A stretch of DNA of 24,679 nucleotides from a virus: positions 1 through 24,679 of IMG/VR virus record IMGVR_UViG_3300046450_002841. One strand, written 5' to 3'. Position 1 is the first letter of the stretch; each line of letters begins with the position of its first letter. Shown here in pieces: positions 1 to 24,417 of the stretch. The position numbers and the translations under genes were made by a program. The notes beneath the pieces were generated by a model. The model did no database searches. It had not been told where the DNA came from and saw only the letters and a list, made by a program, of their open reading frames with translations.

Positions 1-419
1 CGTTCTTGGTCGCTCACGGAATCACGAAAAGGAAGCTTACAGAAGGAAGGTATTGGATCGAAATTCTTCATGACAAGATCATAAAAGACGACTTCAACGG
101 CGTAAAGATTATTACAGATATTCGCTACGACGACTATGAGGGCGATGAAGTAGGTTGGCTCAAGGATGAACTTAACGGGGTATTGGTACATATTTCCCAG
201 TTCTCTTACCGCAGTGACGCAAACGAAGGAGCCTTGGTTAAGGAGGTAAAAGCGGCTGCAAACTCCGAGGAGGAAAGGAACGACCCTAAAGTTAAGGAAA
301 AAAGTGACTTTCAAATCGAATGGGAACTCCTTGAAAGTGGTCATATTGATGAATTATCTCCATATGTGGATAATTTCATGAAATGGCTGCAAGAAAAAAA
401 CCAGAAAGGAAACCGTTAG
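1..419 (+). CDS. Deoxynucleoside monophosphate kinase-like protein, 3' part
   Basis: The reading frame is open to the left edge of the window, so only the C-terminal ~139 residues are present. The pattern of an Arg-Tyr-Trp segment (GRYWIEIL), followed by a strand and IITDIRYDDYEGDEV, resembles the C-terminal half of phage dNMP kinases. In that family a VISDVRF-type strand is followed by an acidic helix and another strand (here GVLVHIS). Such enzymes phosphorylate dNMPs to dNDPs in the cytoplasm, which fits the ribonucleotide reductase genes downstream. The P-loop would lie upstream and cannot be seen. The end overlaps the sigma-factor ORF by 37 nt. A TTG at position 6 is an available start codon but is unlikely to be the true start, because the frame stays open before it. 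The assignment is by pattern only. Confidence 0.5.
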   Translation, partial: FLVAHGITKRKLTEGRYWIEILHDKIIKDDFNGVKIITDIRYDDYEGDEVGWLKDELNGVLVHISQFSYRSDANEGALVKEVKAAANSEEERNDPKVKEKSDFQIEWELLESGHIDELSPYVDNFMKWLQEKNQKGNR

Positions 420-1015
420 TAGATAATACTCTTGTGAGGAGAGTAAAGGACAACGGTTGCAACGACAGTTTCGTGGAGATTCTCAGTAGACACGAGAAGC
501 TGTACTACAAAATCTGCCAAAGGTATATACCGGTAGTCATCGCGAAAGGGTTAAGGAAGGACGACCTTCTTGACGATAGAGATTTCGTAATCTTCAGGGC
601 CGTTTTGTCCTATAAAGCTAACAAAAAGTGTAAATTCTCTACATGGCTGGGTAATTGCACAAAGTACCACTGCTTGACTTTCATAAATTCAAACAGCAAG
701 GAAGTAGACTTGGAAGACGAAACCATTAACCTGTACCTAACCGATAAAAGCAAGCAAGACTTTGACACTGAATGTTCCTTGAAGGATGAAAGGGATTACG
801 TATTCAAAATACTAAACCAATTAAAAGATAAAAGAATATCTAAGGTTTTTAAATTAAGGTACTTCGACAGAAACACCAAAAGGAAGAAGGTGACATGGAG
901 CGTAATAGCCTCCCAGATAGATACCAGCACCCAAACAGCCATTAATTTGCACCAAAGGGGAGTTAACATTCTTAATAAGAAATTGACATCGAAGGAGCTT
1001 TATGACGATATCTAA
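383..1015 (+). CDS. Phage RNA polymerase sigma factor (sigma-70-like)
   Basis: This 210-residue protein has the layout of a small sigma factor. A region-2-like block runs from about residue 36 to 105: HEKLYYKICQRYIP, then KDDLLDDRDFVIFRAVLSY, then KFSTWLGNCTKYHCLTFIN. It matches the DL...G...A...FD...FSTW...I pattern that binds core polymerase and the -10 element. A region-4-like helix-turn-helix lies at about residues 155-203 (ISKVFKLRYFD, then TWSVIASQIDTSTQTAINLHQRG). It probably redirects host RNA polymerase to phage promoters, like T4 gp55. The ATG at 383 lies inside the preceding gene. A GTG at 434 downstream of AGGAAAC is an alternative start that would remove the basic N-terminus. The GTGTAAT motif found elsewhere in the window is a candidate target, by inference. 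Confidence 0.75.
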   Translation: MAARKKPERKPLVDNTLVRRVKDNGCNDSFVEILSRHEKLYYKICQRYIPVVIAKGLRKDDLLDDRDFVIFRAVLSYKANKKCKFSTWLGNCTKYHCLTFINSNSKEVDLEDETINLYLTDKSKQDFDTECSLKDERDYVFKILNQLKDKRISKVFKLRYFDRNTKRKKVTWSVIASQIDTSTQTAINLHQRGVNILNKKLTSKELYDDI

Positions 1016-1024
1016 AATTAGTTG

Positions 1025-1052
1025 TTGACAGGAGCTAAAAACAAAGTATACT
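1025..1052 (+). promoter_or_regulatory. Sigma-70-type promoter, near-leaderless
   Basis: A perfect TTGACA at 1025-1030 is followed by a 16-nt spacer and TATACT at 1047-1052. Initiation about 7 nt after the -10 would start the RNA near 1059, and the ATG is at 1062, leaving almost no leader and no ribosome-binding site. Confidence 0.8.
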
Positions 1053-1061
1053 TAATCTAAC

Positions 1062-1367
1062 ATGAGTGAACAAAAAAATAAAAATGATTGGTCCGAAAGA
1101 GAAGTCGGCGCCCTATGGAAAAAACAGTCGTCTACGCAAAAATTCCTTTCAGGACACATTAAGATTGATGACGGCATGGGCGGTGAGGAAACGCTGCAGG
1201 TCGTTATCTTTAACAATAAGCACAAACAGAAGGACAACCATCCTGATTTCCGAATCTATAAGTCGATCCCCCGCACCCAACCCACTACAAGCGGTCAAAC
1301 CCCCCCTGCCGAAGACGTCGGCGTATCCTCAGGAGTGCAGGAGGTTTCTGAAGAGGACGTGTTGTAG
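1062..1367 (+). CDS. DUF736-like small protein of unknown function
   Basis: This 101-residue protein contains REVGALWKKQ, then FLSGHIKIDD, then a hydrophobic strand with VVIFNNKHKQ, and finally HPDFRIYKS. The order 'IGALWKK...GKI...VVVFxNK...PDFRIYK' resembles small phage and bacterial proteins grouped with DUF736, whose function is unknown. The last ~35 residues are rich in Pro, Thr, Ser, Glu and Val and are probably disordered. It stands alone between its own promoter (1025-1052) and an intrinsic terminator (1391-1420), so it is a single-gene transcript that may be strongly expressed. No catalytic motif is visible. The start is set by the first ATG after the promoter. Overlapping ORFs in other frames lack these patterns. 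Confidence 0.7.
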   Translation: MSEQKNKNDWSEREVGALWKKQSSTQKFLSGHIKIDDGMGGEETLQVVIFNNKHKQKDNHPDFRIYKSIPRTQPTTSGQTPPAEDVGVSSGVQEVSEEDVL

Positions 1368-7210: not shown

Positions 7211-7238
7211 CCCCCTTTGTAAGAAGGGGGTTTTTTTT
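7211..7238 (+). terminator. Rho-independent terminator of the RNR operon
   Basis: CCCCCTT (7211-7217) pairs with AAGGGGG (7224-7230) around a 6-nt loop, followed by eight T residues. It closes the nrdA-nrdB-lipoprotein transcript and lies at the convergent junction with the minus-strand genes. The minus-strand side lacks a T-tract after the stem. Confidence 0.92.
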
Positions 7239-7737
7239 ACCTCATAACCTTGCCTCGTATCTTGGAAACCTTAACCAAGCCGTACCAAGAAGACTCCCTG
7301 TTGTCGCCTATAACCCAAACGTGCCCCTTGGGTACTTTCACTTTGCTTCCATTTTCGTTAAACCATAACGTCTCACCCTTATTAATATAAAAAATAATTG
7401 CTATGCCAGAAAATTCATCTTTTAGCTCGTGGTCATTTAAAAATATTTTACCATACTTAATCTGAACGGTGTCCCCCTCGATAGCTATTACTCTCTTAAG
7501 TAGTTCGTCGCTTTCTTCTTCAGGATCACTCAATATAACAACCTCACCCTTTTCCGGCCTGAAGAACCTGTAGGTCCATTCGTCGACAAGAAGCCTCTGC
7601 CCTTGTTTGAAAGTGGGATCCATACTGCTGCCCTCCACCTTGGAGAAACTATATCCCAAGTGAAAAAACACAGAAAAGACTATGAAGAGAAAAAATATCC
7701 TCATATCCCTACAAGACCTATCTTTCTTCATCTTCAT
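7237..7737 (-). CDS. Signal peptidase I-like protease (S26 family)
   Basis: This is a membrane-anchored serine/lysine protease with the type I signal peptidase boxes in order. An N-terminal transmembrane segment (IFFLFIVFSVFFHLGYSF) is followed by box B VEGSSMDPTF with the nucleophile Ser, LLVDEW, box D LLKRVIAIEGDTVQI with the general-base Lys, and box E WVIGDNRESSWYG. The usual 'SDSR' of box E reads SSWYG here. The ATG at 7737 (MKMKKDRS) overlaps the upstream gene by 20 nt. ATGs at 7731 and 7704 are alternatives, and 7704 would start directly at the membrane segment. It is the last gene of a four-gene minus-strand operon of membrane proteins. It probably cleaves exported phage or host proteins; the substrate is unknown. 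Confidence 0.85.
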   Translation of the reverse strand: MKMKKDRSCRDMRIFFLFIVFSVFFHLGYSFSKVEGSSMDPTFKQGQRLLVDEWTYRFFRPEKGEVVILSDPEEESDELLKRVIAIEGDTVQIKYGKIFLNDHELKDEFSGIAIIFYINKGETLWFNENGSKVKVPKGHVWVIGDNRESSWYGLVKVSKIRGKVMR

Positions 7738-7945
7738 TTTGCACAACATCCACGCCAGCTGGATTACCACAATGCCATTCGGCTCCTTGCTTGTAATATT
7801 TAATTATCTTATATTGATATGCGTTAAGAGCTAGGCTTATAACTAGCAATAAAGCTACCGAAAATTTTATCCAACAGGAATTCCTCTTTAGCCAGCCTTT
7901 TACTCCTGAAAAAACATCAATTTTTGGAAAGAAACAATGGTTCAT
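7718..7945 (-). CDS. Small membrane protein of unknown function
   Basis: This 75-residue protein has one clear membrane segment (WIKFSVALLLVISLALNAYQY, starting near residue 25) after a basic stretch (GVKGWLKRN), and a C-terminal tail with one Cys (AEWHCGNPAG) ending in an acidic cluster (NEDEER). By the positive-inside rule the N-terminus should be cytoplasmic and the tail outside. It overlaps the previous gene by 4 nt (ATGA) and the signal peptidase by about 20 nt, so the genes are probably translated together. I do not recognise a family. The context suggests a part in envelope or lysis functions, by inference. Confidence 0.65.
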   Translation of the reverse strand: MNHCFFPKIDVFSGVKGWLKRNSCWIKFSVALLLVISLALNAYQYKIIKYYKQGAEWHCGNPAGVDVVQNEDEER

Positions 7946-8199
7946 AATATTTTAAATAAAAAAAATAAATTGACTACATTAAACGCCAAACTAATACCAA
8001 GAAGCGTGCTTAAAACCATTACAGCATACCCCTTAGGGGAAATGACGTTAGACCTGCTCAGGCACTTGCGCTTAGGAACTTCAGTATCCACTTCTTTGCC
8101 CTTTAATACCCACCAATTACCACTTCGGTCCTGAACACACCAACCGGTCTCCTGACCGACCCACCACCGTCCGTCCCCATCGACCTTGGTCAGCCTCAT
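7942..8199 (-). CDS. Small C-terminally anchored membrane protein
   Basis: This 85-residue protein has a Trp-rich soluble N-terminal part (GRWWVGQETGWCVQ and SGNWWVLKGKEVD) that could be a small beta domain. It is followed by a basic stretch (PKRKCLSRS) and a C-terminal hydrophobic helix (GYAVMVLSTLLGISLAFNVV then NLFFLFKIL). The topology is that of a tail-anchored protein. It overlaps its neighbours by 4 nt on both sides, within the four-gene minus-strand operon. No family is recognised and no catalytic motif is seen. Confidence 0.65.
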   Translation of the reverse strand: MRLTKVDGDGRWWVGQETGWCVQDRSGNWWVLKGKEVDTEVPKRKCLSRSNVISPKGYAVMVLSTLLGISLAFNVVNLFFLFKIL

Positions 8200-8696
8200 T
8201 GAGCCGAGTCTCCCTGATTGACCTTAATCCACTTACTGGGATCCACCGGTCCGGGAGGGTCAATCTTAGGCGGCCATTCCCCTAGCTTCTTTAAGTACCC
8301 CACAAGGGCGTCAATCGTCGCCTTATAAGAGTTAATTATATCCCTAGATCTAATTAGAGCAGTCTCCTGAGACTCAAGAGACTTCCTCCAGTTCCCCATA
8401 ACGTCTCCTTGAAACTTTATAACCTCATCCTGCTCAACAAGTCTCCTTTCGTAATCCTTCAATACGTATTGAATTCTTATATTATCCTCCATTAATAAAA
8501 ATTTCTCCCGAGAATGCTTGAAATCCTTACGTGTACTAAACAGAATAAAGGTAATAGTTATAAGTAAGATCAAACACACAGAGAAATAATTTTTACGCAA
8601 TACACCGCAGATGCCCTTGCAGCTTTCTTTAATCCAATTCAAAAAGCCGCACAAACCTCTCGTTATTTTAACCCATAAACCGCCAAGAGCCTTCAT
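8196..8696 (-). CDS. Inner-membrane coiled-coil protein (i-spanin-like)
   Basis: From the ATG at 8696 this is 166 residues: a Gly/Trp-rich amphipathic start (MKALGGLWVKITRG), a membrane segment (YFSVCLILLITITFILFS), then a long charged helix with coiled-coil character (KDYERRLVEQDEVIKFQ to SYKATIDALVGYL), and a proline-rich end (EWPPKIDPPGPVDPSKW). This order, one N-terminal membrane helix, periplasmic coiled coil and Pro-rich C-terminus, is that of Rz-type inner-membrane spanins. Several internal phage membrane proteins look similar. A GTG at 8765 would add 23 residues, but ATG 8696 is preferred because the GTGTAAT motif lies exactly 7 nt before it. It is the first gene of the minus-strand operon. 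Confidence 0.6.
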   Translation of the reverse strand: MKALGGLWVKITRGLCGFLNWIKESCKGICGVLRKNYFSVCLILLITITFILFSTRKDFKHSREKFLLMEDNIRIQYVLKDYERRLVEQDEVIKFQGDVMGNWRKSLESQETALIRSRDIINSYKATIDALVGYLKKLGEWPPKIDPPGPVDPSKWIKVNQGDSAQ

Positions 8697-8703
8697 GTAT
8701 ATA

Positions 8704-8710
8704 ATTACAC
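8704..8710 (-). promoter_or_regulatory. GTGTAAT motif, candidate phage-specific promoter element
   Basis: On the minus strand GTGTAAT is followed by 7 nt (TATATAC) and the ATG at 8696. Two plus-strand genes (8852 and 9192) have the same motif at the same distance. No convincing -35 is seen. Confidence 0.5.
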
Positions 8711-8837
8711 CCTTTACTTCGGTTAAGGATCTTTTAAAAGGGCACGCCAGCCTACACTTTTTCACTCAAAAATAGAAAACCTTCAAGTTAGCTCTCTATA
8801 AAATACAACAAACCAACGGGCAACATCGGCAATAAGC

Positions 8838-8844
8838 GTGTAAT
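8838..8844 (+). promoter_or_regulatory. GTGTAAT motif, candidate phage-specific promoter element
   Basis: GTGTAAT is followed by 7 nt (TACAGGC) and the ATG at 8852. The motif sits in the ~155-nt divergent region between two sets of membrane-protein genes, which also contains a TATAAAATA stretch near 8798. Confidence 0.5.
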
Positions 8845-8851
8845 TACAGGC

Positions 8852-9157
8852 ATGAAACTATGGAACTGGTTAAAAAACAAACTCAAATGCGCAAGAAACT
8901 GCAAATGCCCCAAGTGCAAGCTCTCAAATTTAGCTAAAAATTGGCACAAATCCCTCAAGGCGGCCTCATCCAAAGCCCGTGATTCATTTAAAAAAATAAT
9001 CCTACAATACATGCCTAGCACCCGATTGATTAAGGCCCTAGTAGCGATCGGGGGCTCTTTCTGGCTCATTCTAACGGGCAGCCTTGAGTGCACCATGTCA
9101 ATACTATTGCTAGGGTGGGGCGCAGCAGAATTAATTGAATGGTGGTCGTGGAAATAA
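8852..9157 (+). CDS. Small cysteine-containing membrane protein (holin-like topology)
   Basis: This 101-residue protein has a very basic, Cys-rich N-terminal third (KCARNCKCPKCK, four Cys in a C-x3-C-x-C-x2-C arrangement). A basic amphipathic middle part follows, and then two hydrophobic stretches (LIKALVAIGGSFWLILTG and MSILLLGWGAAELIEWW) near the C-terminus. Two close membrane helices in a small basic protein fit a class II holin, but holins are too variable for this to be firm. The Cys cluster could bind zinc. A 102-residue ORF on the opposite strand covers the same DNA and lacks a sensible composition. The GTGTAAT motif 7 nt before the ATG supports this frame. Confidence 0.6.
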   Translation: MKLWNWLKNKLKCARNCKCPKCKLSNLAKNWHKSLKAASSKARDSFKKIILQYMPSTRLIKALVAIGGSFWLILTGSLECTMSILLLGWGAAELIEWWSWK

Positions 9158-9177
9158 TTACCTTTTTTAAGAAATTA

Positions 9178-9184
9178 GTGTAAT
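9178..9184 (+). promoter_or_regulatory. GTGTAAT motif, candidate phage-specific promoter element
   Basis: GTGTAAT is followed by 7 nt (AGGATAC) and the ATG at 9192. A weak -35-like TTACCT lies at 9158-9163. The AGGA in the 7-nt gap is too close to the ATG to be a normal ribosome-binding site. Confidence 0.5.
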
Positions 9185-9191
9185 AGGATAC

Positions 9192-9476
9192 ATGGACTAT
9201 CAAATTTTCGTGAACGTATCCGTCGGTGTAGTTACCTTGATGGGGGGATGGGTATTCAAGATGCTCCTTGGCCACATTAACGAAATTAAATCGGAACACA
9301 ACGACTTAATGGCAAAGCACCACGAAGACGTTGAGAAAGTCACCTCTAAATACACTGACCTTGCCCTTTCGATGCCAGAAAAATACGTCAGCAAAGACGA
9401 CTTTAGAATGTTTTCTGAAAGAATGAACGACAGGTTCGACAGAATAGAAGAAAAGCTCGACAACATGAACAAATAG
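9192..9476 (+). CDS. Membrane-anchored coiled-coil protein
   Basis: This 94-residue protein has an N-terminal hydrophobic helix (VSVGVVTLMGGWVFKMLLG, about residues 9-27) followed by a charged helix (HINEIKSEHNDLMAKHHEDV). The C-terminal end, YVSKDDFRMFSERMNDRFDR then IEEKLDNMNK, has the heptad look of many small phage and bacterial membrane proteins in which a YVxKDDF segment precedes a trimeric or dimeric coiled coil. The function is not known. Holin accessory, spanin-like or structural roles are possible. The GTGTAAT motif precedes it, and it follows the holin-like gene by 34 nt. Confidence 0.65.
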   Translation: MDYQIFVNVSVGVVTLMGGWVFKMLLGHINEIKSEHNDLMAKHHEDVEKVTSKYTDLALSMPEKYVSKDDFRMFSERMNDRFDRIEEKLDNMNK

Positions 9477-18866: not shown

Positions 18867-19850
18867 ATGATAGAAAAAAATAAAAGAATCCTGTCTGCGT
18901 CAAGGATCAAAACGCTCGAAAGCTGCAGTTGGTCGTACTGGTGTAACTATCACCTTAAAGTGCCCCAGAGAGGCAATGACGGCGCAAGGAGAGGCACCGT
19001 GTGCCACTTAATCTTCGAGTGCCTACTGAAGCAGAGACATAAAAAACACTACGATTTAATAATGAAAGAGTCTAACACGGAAGCTAGTAAGTCCGTGGTA
19101 GCCTTGGTTAAAAAAGGCCTCAAGAGAGAGGGAGCCTTCTCCAAGGAAAACTTTGAGCTATGCATGAAGATGATCTTAGTAGCCTTAAACCAAGACTTCT
19201 ACGGCACAGGAGAAGAGCTGGAGCCAGCCGCCCCAGAGCTAGAGTTCCTCTTGGAGAATAAAAATCCCAAATACAGGATAAGGGGATTCATAGATAAAAC
19301 TCTCAGGTATAAAGATAAAGTAAAAATCATAGATTACAAGACGAGTAAATACAAGTTTAAAGGCGATGAACTTACGGCCAACGTCCAAGCGATGGCATAC
19401 ACTCTGGCTTCTAGAAAAAAACTATTTCCTAAAATAAAAAACGTGGAGGTAGAGTTCCAATTCCTAAAATTCCCCAGACAACCACTCCAGCAAGTCAAGA
19501 GCTCTGAGGAGCAACTAAAAGGTTTCGAACACTACTTAGCTCATGTTTATAAAATTATAAATAATTTTGATAATGACACGGCTAGGACAAATTTCGCCGT
19601 AGATTCGAACAAAAACAGATGGCTCTGTAAGGCTGGAGCGACATGGAGATGCCCTTACCTTGACCCCGTAGACTACTACGCCATTAAAAACGATTTTGAC
19701 GAAGTGGTAACAACTGCTTTCGAGGAGAAAGGTCTTCGCCCCTTAAGGAAAGGGGAAAAGCTAGTTAAACTAAGGTACGAAGGGTGTCCGGCTCACACCT
19801 ACTCAGATACATCCTTCGGAACAAAAGACGACCCCTTTGATTGGGCTTGA
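18867..19850 (+). CDS. RecB/Cas4-like PD-(D/E)XK exonuclease
   Basis: The 327-residue protein has SASRIKTLESCSWSYW at the start (the RecB-type S/T-xSRI motif with Cys20), RRGTVCHLIFE (helix with the conserved His), RGFIDKTL with Asp143, KIIDYKTSKYK with Asp156-x-Lys158 as the catalytic D-x-K, and ANVQAMAYTLA (QAxxY motif). Late cysteines (WLCK, WRCPYLD, YEGCPAH) with Cys20 could hold a 4Fe-4S cluster as in AddB, Cas4 and related phage exonucleases. It probably resects DNA ends for recombination or degrades host DNA. It starts a block that runs directly into the polymerase genes, with the next promoter overlapping its stop codon. Confidence 0.8.
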   Translation: MIEKNKRILSASRIKTLESCSWSYWCNYHLKVPQRGNDGARRGTVCHLIFECLLKQRHKKHYDLIMKESNTEASKSVVALVKKGLKREGAFSKENFELCMKMILVALNQDFYGTGEELEPAAPELEFLLENKNPKYRIRGFIDKTLRYKDKVKIIDYKTSKYKFKGDELTANVQAMAYTLASRKKLFPKIKNVEVEFQFLKFPRQPLQQVKSSEEQLKGFEHYLAHVYKIINNFDNDTARTNFAVDSNKNRWLCKAGATWRCPYLDPVDYYAIKNDFDEVVTTAFEEKGLRPLRKGEKLVKLRYEGCPAHTYSDTSFGTKDDPFDWA

Positions 19851-19874
19851 CATTCTAAAAAAAAATAAGACAAT
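19847..19874 (+). promoter_or_regulatory. Sigma-70-type promoter of the split polymerase operon, leaderless
   Basis: TTGACA (19847-19852), a 16-nt spacer and GACAAT (19869-19874) lie 7 nt before the ATG at 19882. The -10 is weak at two positions but the -35 is perfect. It overlaps the stop codon of the nuclease gene. Confidence 0.5.
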
Positions 19875-19881
19875 AGAAGCA

Positions 19882-20631
19882 ATGGATGACTTAATTCCTT
19901 TATTCAAAACCCACTACAGTCTAGGGAAATCTATATTAAATTTAAGCTTATCAGAAAACGGTCCTGATGAGTCGGACTCTGTTTTCCTGATCTTAAAGGA
20001 AAAGAAAATGAAAGAACTGGTTCTGGTGGAGGACTGCATGACGGGATTCCTAGAGGCCTATAATAATTGCAAGGAGCAAGGAGTGAAGTTGGCCTTCGGT
20101 CTTCGCCTTACGGTCTGCTCAGATATGGAAGAAAAGTCTCCCGACTCACTTAAGACCAACAACAAGGTGATAATTTTTGCAAAGAATAACTCTGGATACA
20201 ATAAATTAATAAAAATATTCTCGCTCGCAGCTAGGAAAGGTTTTTATTACGAGCCCAGAATAGACTATAAACATCTAAGAGATAGATGGGACGACTCAAA
20301 ATTAATGATGGCCATACCGTTTTACGATTCTTACATCTTTAAAAATACTTTAGAGAACAACATGTGTGTTCCGGAGTTCGACTTCACTGACCCTACGTAC
20401 TTTCTGGAAGACAACAACCTCCCCTTTGACGAGTTAATAAGCGACAAGACGACTAACGTAGCAAGCAAAACGCAAAAGACACAAAGCGTTTACTACAAGA
20501 ACAAAAAAGACTTCAAAGCTTACCTAACGTTCAGATGCATAAATAATAGAAGTACCCTAGATAAACCTCAACTAGAGCACATGACTAGCAATGAGTTTTG
20601 CGTGGAAGGATGGATGGAAAAGAATGGATGA
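19882..20631 (+). CDS. DNA polymerase III alpha PHP-domain fragment gene
   Basis: This 249-residue protein corresponds to the N-terminal part of DnaE-type polymerases. It has PLFKTHYSLGKSIL (PHP start), LVEDCMTGFLEAYNNCKEQ, VKLAFGLRLTV, IIFAKNNSGYNKLIKIFSLA, GFYYEPRIDYKHL, and ends in a DFKAYLTFRCINNRSTL, NEFCVEGWMEK segment. This last matches the region that in DnaE is followed directly by the polymerase part. The normal PHP metal site is degraded (Cys instead of His in VEDC, few His), so it probably has a structural role. The gene stops with an 8-nt overlap into the exonuclease gene, so the alpha subunit is split here. The start at 19882 is set by the promoter; TTG at 19837 is unlikely. Confidence 0.85.
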   Translation: MDDLIPLFKTHYSLGKSILNLSLSENGPDESDSVFLILKEKKMKELVLVEDCMTGFLEAYNNCKEQGVKLAFGLRLTVCSDMEEKSPDSLKTNNKVIIFAKNNSGYNKLIKIFSLAARKGFYYEPRIDYKHLRDRWDDSKLMMAIPFYDSYIFKNTLENNMCVPEFDFTDPTYFLEDNNLPFDELISDKTTNVASKTQKTQSVYYKNKKDFKAYLTFRCINNRSTLDKPQLEHMTSNEFCVEGWMEKNG

Positions 20632-21262: not shown

Positions 21263-23802
21263 CATCTGACTTTACAGATAATTTTGAAGAACTCGATCTC
21301 GGCATTCACGGAGTAAGACTCCCTTCCTTTAATGTTAGCGATGAGGACAAGCGCAAACTTGGCGTTAGCGAAGACATAAAGAACGAAGACTTTCTGCGTA
21401 AACTCTGCGAGGACAGCCTTATCGAAAGAAACCTCGACAAGGAAAAGTATAAAGAAAGGCTTGATTATGAATTCAATACAGTTAAAGACTTAGGGTTCAT
21501 TGATTACCTCTTGCTGGTCTGGGAGGTTATCAACTATTGCAAAAAAGAAAAAATTCCGACGGGCCTCGGGCGCGGTTCAGCAGCGGGAAGCCTTCTCCTT
21601 TTCCTAATGGACGTAACAAAGATTGACCCCCTGAAATACGATTTATATTTTGAGCGTTTCATCTCTAAAATTCGCGCCAAGAAAAATATAGTAGACGGCG
21701 TAACCTATCTAGACGGTTCGTTGATGATGGATGTAGATTTAGATATTTGTTATTATAATCGCCAAAAAGTATTAAAATTTTTAGACGACAAGTTCTCAGG
21801 CAAGACAGCTAAGATTATCACGCTGAACACACTAAGCGGCAAGCTTTGCATGAAGGAGTGCGGCAAGGTAGTTTCGTCGAAATCCGAACAAGAAATGAAC
21901 AAGGTGTCGTCCCTTATTCCAAAAGTATTCGGACAAGTAAAAGACTTAAAAGAAGCCTACGCCGAGGTCCCAGAGCTAAGAGAATGGTGCGACGAGAATA
22001 GAGAATGCTATGATATCGCCCTCAAGATAAAAGGGCTTAATAAAAACAAAGGAGTGCACCCCTCGGCGATTTCCCTTTCTTACGACATGATGGAAGACAC
22101 CTGCCCAACAGAACTTACCTCAGATAAGAAAAGCTTTGTTTCTTCTTACGATATGAACTGGGTGTCCATGTTCAACGTAAAGCTTGACATACTTGGACTC
22201 AGGGCGGTCTCAGTAGTTAATGACGTCTGCAACAATGTAGGCATTCAAATCTCCGACATAGATCTAACTGACAGCTTGATTTATGATAATTTGCAAAACC
22301 TCAGGACGCCTCACGGGTTATTCCAAATCGAGGCAGACACGAACTATAGGGTGTGCCGGAAAGTTAAACCCAAGAACCTAGAAGAGCTCAGCGGTGTTTT
22401 GGCCTTGGCAAGACCCGGCGCGTTAGCTTTCGTGGATCAATACGCCGAGTACGTTAACACAGGGGAAACAAAATCCATCCATCCATTTTTCGACGACATC
22501 TTATCGGAGACGGGAGGGGTCGCTCTATATCAAGAGCAGTTAATGAAAATGGCGAACAAAGTCGGGTTCAGCCTAGACGAAGCGGAATTGCTCCGACGGA
22601 TTGTCGGTAAGAAAAAGGTAACAGAAGTTAGAAAGTGGAAGAAAAAAATCAAAGACAAGGTAAAGACGAACAAAATAGACCCAAAAGTCGGAGAAATACT
22701 GTGGAAACTTCTCGAAGATTCCGCGAATTATTCGTTCAATAAATCCCATTCCATATCTTACGCAGCCTTAGCGGCGATCACGGTCTACTTAAAATTCAAA
22801 TACCCCCAACAGTTCTTTCTGAGCTTACTTAAGATGACTAGGCATGAGCCAGACCCAATTCAAGAGATATCTAAAATACAAAGGGAAATGTCTCACTTTG
22901 GCGTGGAGCTACTTAGCCCACACATAATTAAATCCGACATGGATTTCAACACCGAAAACGAAAACATAAGATTTGGACTGTTGTCCATAAAGGGGATTTC
23001 CGAAAAATCTATTGAAAAATTAAATAATTTTAAAAATAATTACTCAGGCAAATTCGAGGTCTTTGAAGGAGCGAAAGAATCAGGGCTTACCATCGGCATT
23101 CTTTCCGCATTAATCCAAGCAGGTACCTTCGAGGGCTTCCATTCGTCCAGAAGCAAGATAGTCTACGAAGCTCAACTCTGGAACATTCTTACCAAAAAAG
23201 AAAAAGCTGCAGCATTGTTAATGGACGGGAAGCACAACTCCGATTTAGTCGAAATAATAAAGTCTTTATCCGGTAAAAAAGACGACAAAGGTAAACTGAT
23301 AATTAAGGACACGAGACTCAAGACAATAAAAACAAAGTCTGAGCCATATAAACAGATTTACTTTAAAAATAAATACTCAGAATCCTTTGCGAATTGGTAT
23401 TACGAAAACCACCTATTAGGTTATACTTGCGGTAAAACTCTTATAGATATTTTTGAAAAGAAAAGGAACGGCTTAATGACGCTAAGAGAGGTCGAAGACG
23501 CGGAAGTTGACGAAAGCGTATCGTTTGTAGGCACTATAGAAAGCAAGCCGTATTTTGGCAAATCCAGAAACGATAACCAGTACATGAAGGCCTTCGTTAA
23601 AGACGAGACGGCCAACATAAAAGTAATGATCTTTTCTAAGAGGTTAGAAAACATGCTGTCAGAAAATGCGCAGAACCCACCCTCAGAAAATAACATCATA
23701 ATTGTAACGGGAAAGAAAAAGGAAGAGGTAGTCTTCGCGGACAGAATAGCAATACAAACCAACAGAATTTACACTAAATTGTCCGACCTGAAAGATGCTT
23801 GA
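21259..23802 (+). CDS. DNA polymerase III alpha catalytic fragment (DnaE-like, without PHP)
   Basis: At 847 residues this carries everything in DnaE after PHP: LPSFNVSDEDKRK, RLDYEFNTVKDLGFIDYLLL, PTGLGRGSAAGSLLLFLMD (fingers/palm), DVDLD at 158-162 (the Asp pair of the PDIDIDF motif), KLDILGL with Asp310 (third catalytic Asp), YQEQLMKMANKVGFSLDEAE with LLRRIVGKKK, and YSFNKSHSISYAALAAI. Near the C-terminus VSFVGTIESKPYFGKSRNDN is an OB-fold domain. It would be the replicative polymerase. The ATG at 21259 overlaps the exonuclease stop by 4 nt; an upstream ATG at 21244 is less likely. No helix-hairpin-helix segment was confirmed by eye. Confidence 0.95.
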   Translation: MTSDFTDNFEELDLGIHGVRLPSFNVSDEDKRKLGVSEDIKNEDFLRKLCEDSLIERNLDKEKYKERLDYEFNTVKDLGFIDYLLLVWEVINYCKKEKIPTGLGRGSAAGSLLLFLMDVTKIDPLKYDLYFERFISKIRAKKNIVDGVTYLDGSLMMDVDLDICYYNRQKVLKFLDDKFSGKTAKIITLNTLSGKLCMKECGKVVSSKSEQEMNKVSSLIPKVFGQVKDLKEAYAEVPELREWCDENRECYDIALKIKGLNKNKGVHPSAISLSYDMMEDTCPTELTSDKKSFVSSYDMNWVSMFNVKLDILGLRAVSVVNDVCNNVGIQISDIDLTDSLIYDNLQNLRTPHGLFQIEADTNYRVCRKVKPKNLEELSGVLALARPGALAFVDQYAEYVNTGETKSIHPFFDDILSETGGVALYQEQLMKMANKVGFSLDEAELLRRIVGKKKVTEVRKWKKKIKDKVKTNKIDPKVGEILWKLLEDSANYSFNKSHSISYAALAAITVYLKFKYPQQFFLSLLKMTRHEPDPIQEISKIQREMSHFGVELLSPHIIKSDMDFNTENENIRFGLLSIKGISEKSIEKLNNFKNNYSGKFEVFEGAKESGLTIGILSALIQAGTFEGFHSSRSKIVYEAQLWNILTKKEKAAALLMDGKHNSDLVEIIKSLSGKKDDKGKLIIKDTRLKTIKTKSEPYKQIYFKNKYSESFANWYYENHLLGYTCGKTLIDIFEKKRNGLMTLREVEDAEVDESVSFVGTIESKPYFGKSRNDNQYMKAFVKDETANIKVMIFSKRLENMLSENAQNPPSENNIIIVTGKKKEEVVFADRIAIQTNRIYTKLSDLKDA

Positions 23803-23826
23803 CATTAATAAAAAAACCCCTATACT
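23799..23826 (+). promoter_or_regulatory. Sigma-70-type promoter, leaderless
   Basis: Perfect TTGACA (23799-23804), a 16-nt spacer and TATACT (23821-23826), the same boxes and spacing as the promoter at 1025. The ATG at 23833 is 6 nt after the -10, where transcription should begin. Confidence 0.8.
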
Positions 23827-23832
23827 TGTAGT

Positions 23833-24417
23833 ATGATAAGCTTTTACAAGCCCACGGAGAAAGTGACAGGCACAGCCATGTCCTTCTACCTTAACAAAAG
23901 AGACAATTCATTTTTTTCTAACATGATCAAGCAGGACTCTTGGGATGCTTCTCGCAAAATTGGCTCCTTCCAAAAGAACAAAAAGGTTGAAGGCAAGAAT
24001 GTAAACATTAAGTTTAACCAAACAGAAATAGCCGCCATGGTTGATGCCGTAGACAGAAACGCCGAGGTTTCTGGTTACCACGGAAGCAATCAGGTCGTAA
24101 GATTTTCCTTTGGCCCATACGTGCCTAAGCAAAAGACAAGCGATGGTGAATGGATCGAAGGAACAAAACAAAAGGGCTTTTCTTTCAGAGTTACCAGAGA
24201 AGCTAAAGAAGACTCGACGAATAGACAAAGCTATATCATAGGCTTAACTTTTCCAGAAGCGAAACTCCTCAGAGAGCACTTAGTGTATCTCCTAAACGAA
24301 AGCTTTGCTTTAACAGATAAAATAATGGAAGCCTCCTTCAAGAAAAAGCAAGAGCGAAGAGACGAAGAGGCTTCTCATGTTCCCGTCAAAACAGAAGATG
24401 AAGACGACCTTTGGTAA
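23833..24417 (+). CDS. Putative single-stranded DNA-binding protein with acidic tail
   Basis: This 194-residue protein has a KVTGTAMSFYLN strand, FFSNMIKQDSWDASRKIGSF, KNVNIKFNQTEIAAMVDAVD, YHGSNQVVRFSFGPYVP, and SFRVTREA with YIIGLTFPEAKLLREHL, a beta-rich fold with several aromatic and basic residues. The last part is charged and ends TEDEDDLW, an acidic tail with a final aromatic residue like bacterial and phage SSBs, which use it to bind replication partners. I do not recognise the OB fold clearly; a PC4/Whirly-like ssDNA-binding fold is possible. Its strong leaderless promoter, right after the polymerase, fits an abundant SSB. Confidence 0.5.
   Translation: MISFYKPTEKVTGTAMSFYLNKRDNSFFSNMIKQDSWDASRKIGSFQKNKKVEGKNVNIKFNQTEIAAMVDAVDRNAEVSGYHGSNQVVRFSFGPYVPKQKTSDGEWIEGTKQKGFSFRVTREAKEDSTNRQSYIIGLTFPEAKLLREHLVYLLNESFALTDKIMEASFKKKQERRDEEASHVPVKTEDEDDLW

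Follow-up and report, generated by a model that had tools for sequence, protein, structure and literature searches.

Three small genes in an uncultured virus of bacteria are each preceded by the heptamer GTGTAAT at one and the same distance from the ATG, which raises the question of whether this heptamer is a promoter and, if so, which factor reads it. The window, the whole stretch of DNA analysed here, is a 24,679-base virus record and is probably itself a fragment. From comparison of its sequence with those of its relatives, we consider it likely that GTGTAAT(T/A)A is the late promoter core of a large uncultured phage clade, read without a −35 element by a phage sigma factor of the family encoded at 383-1015.

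GTGTAAT stands at a fixed distance from three membrane-protein genes

Counted over both strands, the window has three copies of GTGTAAT and no more, at 8704-8710 (−), 8838-8844 (+) and 9178-9184 (+), each before a small gene:

8694..8710, minus strand: putative late (class-2) promoter for gene 8196-8696, reading GTGTAAT-N7-ATG; transcription predicted to begin with the A of the ATG (8696)
8838..8854, plus strand: putative late (class-2) promoter for gene 8852-9157; transcription predicted to begin at 8852
9178..9194, plus strand: putative late (class-2) promoter for gene 9192-9476; transcription predicted to begin at 9192
8196..8696, minus strand: gene for 166 aa; hydrophobic stretch near residue 37, charged coiled-coil-like part, Pro-rich C-terminus
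8852..9157, plus strand: gene for 101 aa; Cys/Trp-rich, hydrophobic stretch C-terminal
9192..9476, plus strand: gene for 94 aa; N-terminal hydrophobic segment, then a coiled-coil-like part; phrog_462

A sequence-only reading had noted the heptamer exactly 7 nt before the ATG of genes 8852 and 9192 on the plus strand and 8696 on the minus strand, with no further copy on either strand, and both observations hold. It had also judged the copy number to be near chance and the identical placement to be beyond it, which the counts bear out, with three copies observed against 2.33 expected, whereas GTGTAAT-N7-ATG is found at 3/3 copies against an expectation of 0.02, and none of 100 shuffles contained three. 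A single-mismatch GTGTAAT-type site at 9226-9242, inside gene 9192, is probably due to chance. The description of the targets as membrane-protein genes agrees with the one hydrophobic stretch in each of the 166-, 101- and 94-aa ORFs; the 166-aa product, possibly spanin-like, has no match in Pfam or PHROG, and the 101-aa product has no family match in either. The minus-strand cassette that holds gene 8196-8696 also encodes a signal peptidase S26-like protein at 7237-7770 (−) (PF10502, 6e-27).

The viral collection contains 30 relatives of the 94-aa product, and GTGTAA lies just upstream of 27 of these homologues, in 22 at exactly N8-ATG, as counted from printed sequences among which some loci are near-identical. 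Similarity among these relatives starts exactly at the ATG, and 5′ of it only the GTGTAA block is kept, the rest being mostly unalike. The motif also stands before neighbouring genes, divergent or codirectional (L006, L014, L015 and others): the arrangement at 8694..8710 recurs at a divergent gene in L006, L015 and L016, and that at 8838..8854 in L006, L014 and L015.

A strict GTGTAA core recurs in the relatives without a −35 element

We compared the window with 15 longer relatives (one of them, G006, without its last 489 bases), calling genes as simple longest ORFs with no trained gene finder. In an unprompted scan of 1731 gene starts, GTGTAA at −14 was among the strongest position-specific hexamers, beside CTTGAC at −36. 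GTGTAA-N8-ATG was found at 41 sites where the ATG begins an ORF of 50 codons or more, compared with about two for each other offset, and single-base variants of the hexamer were barely enriched, the mild exceptions being ATGTAA and GTGTAT. Spacings of 9-12 nt gave smaller excesses, which suggests short leaders. GTGTAA also recurs 41 nt upstream of an ATG that lies in frame in a 356-aa ORF, a conserved coding stretch that was set aside.

The sites of this class read GTGTAA-TTAT. Removal of homologues left 77 leaderless sites from many contigs, and at none of the 45 positions upstream of them did the signal exceed 0.15 bit, consistent with the sequence-only proposal of a promoter without a −35; the same procedure applied to TATNAT-N6-ATG sites does recover a −35. 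The base before the ATG is T or C in 77/77 of these sites, compared with 48% in other genes. A pyrimidine-purine step is expected at transcription starts, so that the invariant pyrimidine is as expected for a start at the A of the ATG. Together with the GTGTAA spacing, the pyrimidine-A step fits a leaderless promoter with the start codon at the predicted +1.

Class-2 sites precede tail genes and class-1 promoters most replication genes

GTGTAA is not confined to leaderless positions, as 29 sense copies in non-coding DNA stand 21-53 nt ahead of the gene they precede; in 22 of these cases the leader is Shine-Dalgarno-like, as in GTGTAATTATAGAAGGAAAAAGGAGA-ATG. Whether the motif precedes structural genes had been put forward as a check on the late assignment, and among the relatives these leadered sites head the tape measure gene (G003, G005), a tail fibre gene (G002) and minor tail genes (G003, G014), the G003 operon continuing with genes that match lambda-type minor tail, tail assembly and central fibre J proteins. 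G003, an otherwise unfamiliar aquatic phage, has its tail-tip genes in the lambda-type order (minor tail L, K, then I, J) at G003:12959-21384 (−), equivalent to L063:12962-20000 plus L064:839-1384. In G001, several class-2 sites lie in a long operon around and after the terminase, which includes a tail protein. Shortly after the terminase, this 162-kb relative also encodes a 385-aa tubulin/TubZ-like protein (PF00091, 1.5e-11; L036:9305-10459, G001:29305-30462). Leaderless class-2 sites stand mostly at the head of small genes.

Replication genes carry promoters of sigma70 form, CTTGAC-N17-TATAAT, here called class 1. Where TTGAC lies 35 nt ahead of the ATG, positions −12 to −7 carry TATAAT, which puts the A of the ATG at +1 of a sigma70 promoter. 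Class-1 promoters in the window include:

1025..1064, plus strand: class-1 promoter TTGACA...TATACT before gene 1062
19847..19884, plus strand: class-1 promoter of the PHP-domain gene 19882-20631, with TTGACA 35 nt before the ATG and a weak −10
23799..23835, plus strand: leaderless class-1 promoter TTGACA...TATACT before gene 23833

The nearest upstream promoter was class 2 for 18 structural markers and class 1 for none, whereas for replication genes it was class 1 in 89 cases and class 2 in 13, a contrast whose Fisher value overstates its significance because the genes of one operon are not independent. This separation accords with the earlier remark that the target genes differ in type from the replication genes, and it is the pattern of a late promoter, with GTGTAA upstream of structural genes and class 1 upstream of most replication genes. 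The replication genes with class 2 as the nearest promoter count against this assignment; of these 13, no fewer than 8 are found downstream of the cassette that holds gene 9192. Also against it, the strict motif was absent at the terminase operon heads of G001 and G002 and at many other operons. No major capsid or portal gene was recognisable in the records examined, and the structural targets named above are of tail type. A G010 match to the PHROG 'head maturation protease' is a ClpP-type protein and provides only weak evidence for a structural gene.

A phage sigma factor accompanies the motif

The window was also noted to encode its own sigma factor, the probable reader of the motif:

383..1015, plus strand: phage sigma factor, 210 aa, sigma70-like regions 2 and 4

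The window protein alone matched Sigma70_r2 weakly (E 0.00029; 21 bits, under the Pfam cut-off of 24), and a profile of the family, aligned from 10 members, matched SigA regions 2 and 4 with an E of 1e-6, which places it in the sigma70 family. The predicted structure (pLDDT 78.8, pTM 0.51) consists of two helical domains and, between them, a linker of poor prediction quality, and its best Foldseek matches are sigma factors, but with high rmsd over the two domains. The family is present in 14/16 records, the window included; the two others, G006 and G017, contain the motif with no sigma detected, and both records are incomplete. No relative was found in the bacterial genomes or the cultured-phage records searched, no near DNA match of the window was found among phages, and no cultured member of the clade was found.

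The tie between sigma factor and motif that the sequence-only reading had suggested can be seen in loci selected without regard to the motif. The 80 loci retrieved by the sigma alone contain 77 GTGTAA-N8-ATG sites, compared with 11 for the next-best anagram, although many of these loci are homologous to each other and the 77 sites are not independent events. Per 100 kb, sigma-retrieved loci with sigma identities as low as ~32% carry 8-16 sites (N8-N12), compared with 0.8-1.4 in T4-like control loci; three still more distant loci hold one site among them. An NrdA-based control yielded mostly members of this clade and so was uninformative. This co-occurrence points to the 383-1015 family as the probable reader.

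Besides the motif in G006 and G017 with no sigma detected, two observations count against that assignment. Sigma region 4 normally reads a −35, yet none is conserved here despite a region-4-like helix-turn-helix in the protein, and several relatives encode one or two further sigmas. The same late promoter might thus be read by a second phage sigma, of the RpoD-like type at G001:159316-160134, or by host sigma70 redirected by a phage activator. An RpoD-like sigma is indeed present in G001, G002, G010, G011 and G012, and G001 has a third, but these are 5/16 records against 14 for the 383-1015 family, loci chosen by that family only are rich in the motif, and one-base GTGTAA variants are barely enriched, unlike the usual sigma70 promoters. 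We regard another reader as unlikely, though as the alternative that best withstands the data. The sigmas of G001 lie at 22796-23464, 143757-144350 (−) and 159316-160134 and comprise a window-type, a phrog_1740-type and an RpoD-like protein (272 aa), the RpoD-like one at 159316-160134.

Explanations other than a promoter

The strict conservation of the core would also suit an operator, bound by a phage regulator and overlapping an unrecognised host promoter. However, the core is not palindromic, no other promoter element such as a −35 lies nearby, terminator-like hairpins stand immediately 5′ of 9/165 class-2 sites and leave little room there for another promoter, and the strict pyrimidine before the ATG suggests a start at a fixed distance from the motif, making an operator very improbable. 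An element guiding the ribosome to the ATG, which the fixed distance in the commonest arrangement might suggest, appears more improbable still, since the hexamer also lies 21-53 nt upstream of genes with mostly Shine-Dalgarno-like leaders, as befits a promoter and not a translation signal, and marks the heads of structural but not replication operons. Chance or local duplication within one cassette, compatible with three heptamer copies being roughly the chance number, is ruled out for practical purposes by the spacing (0.02 expected), by conservation in relatives and by the 77 non-homologous sites across many contigs.

A putative late transcription programme

On the favoured reading, that of a late promoter read by the 383-1015 family, an RNA polymerase, most likely the host core, together with this sigma would recognise GTGTAA at −14 to −9 and start ~8 nt downstream, with no need for a −35. 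At the small membrane-protein genes the start would coincide with the A of the ATG and yield a leaderless mRNA, while at tail structural genes it would lie further upstream and produce a leader, usually with a Shine-Dalgarno sequence. Replication genes would depend on sigma70-type promoters, as would the sigma gene in most cases in which a promoter is seen (nearest promoter class 1 in 6 records, class 2 in one), giving a cascade from host sigma70 through the phage sigma to the structural and envelope genes.

With somewhat less assurance, we also favour the view that this is a late system separate from the T4 lineage, spread through a broad uncultured aquatic clade, in which a two-domain sigma acts on a strict GTGTAA whose placement sets leaderless membrane-gene or Shine-Dalgarno-led structural-gene mRNA. 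The hexamer, its spacing and its strand would provide a ready rule for calling late operons in this large clade, and whether leaderless mRNA at envelope genes is a deliberate setting becomes a testable question. A laboratory use of the short element with one small sigma, as an orthogonal promoter pair, is also conceivable.

Comparison with known late and leaderless promoters

T4 late promoters lack a −35, and the class described here resembles them in its short strict element in the −10 region, in the absence of a −35, and in its predicted phage sigma and late genes. The T4 element, TATAAATA, lies at −13 to −6 and is used with the sigma gp55, gp33 and the clamp gp45 (PMC1524935), and TGTAATTA would occupy the same register (−13 to −6) if the start is the A of the ATG. 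By contrast, the core here is GTGTAA, and TATAAATA is not comparably concentrated upstream of the clade's gene starts; many transcripts here are predicted to be leaderless; and the sigma has sigma70-like regions 2 and 4 with no detectable similarity to gp55. Homology to gp55 (phrog_234) was rejected at an hhalign probability of 0.1%, the window sigma matching phrog_36 and phrog_351. No bacterial-type clamp (DNA_pol3_beta) was found in 8 records, and the T4 clamp model matched nothing anywhere, controls included. The second, late promoter class originally proposed is supported in its lack of a −35 and its tail targets, but the sigma is not homologous to gp55, so that the comparison with T4 holds for layout only. 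In the GTGTAAT class, late promoters without a −35 seem to have arisen independently of those of T4, and with a sigma that retains region 4.

Among other phages, AR9 late promoters (AACA-(6N)-TA/G) and phiKZ late promoters (TATG) likewise have a minimal element close to the start, but these are read by phage multisubunit RNA polymerases with no sigma factor (PMC5312081). A literature search for the heptamer returned no phage late promoter of this kind among the matches listed. Mycobacterial leaderless genes use a canonical −10, whereas the late class here has GTGTAAT and it is the early phage class that has the canonical sigma70 form. The likeness to the leaderless transcripts of mycobacteria (PMC4633059), which come from cellular genes, lies in the predicted start at the start codon.

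In the window and its relatives, early genes have sigma70-type promoters whose predicted +1 coincides with the A of the ATG, a leaderless arrangement, or differs from it by no more than a few bases.
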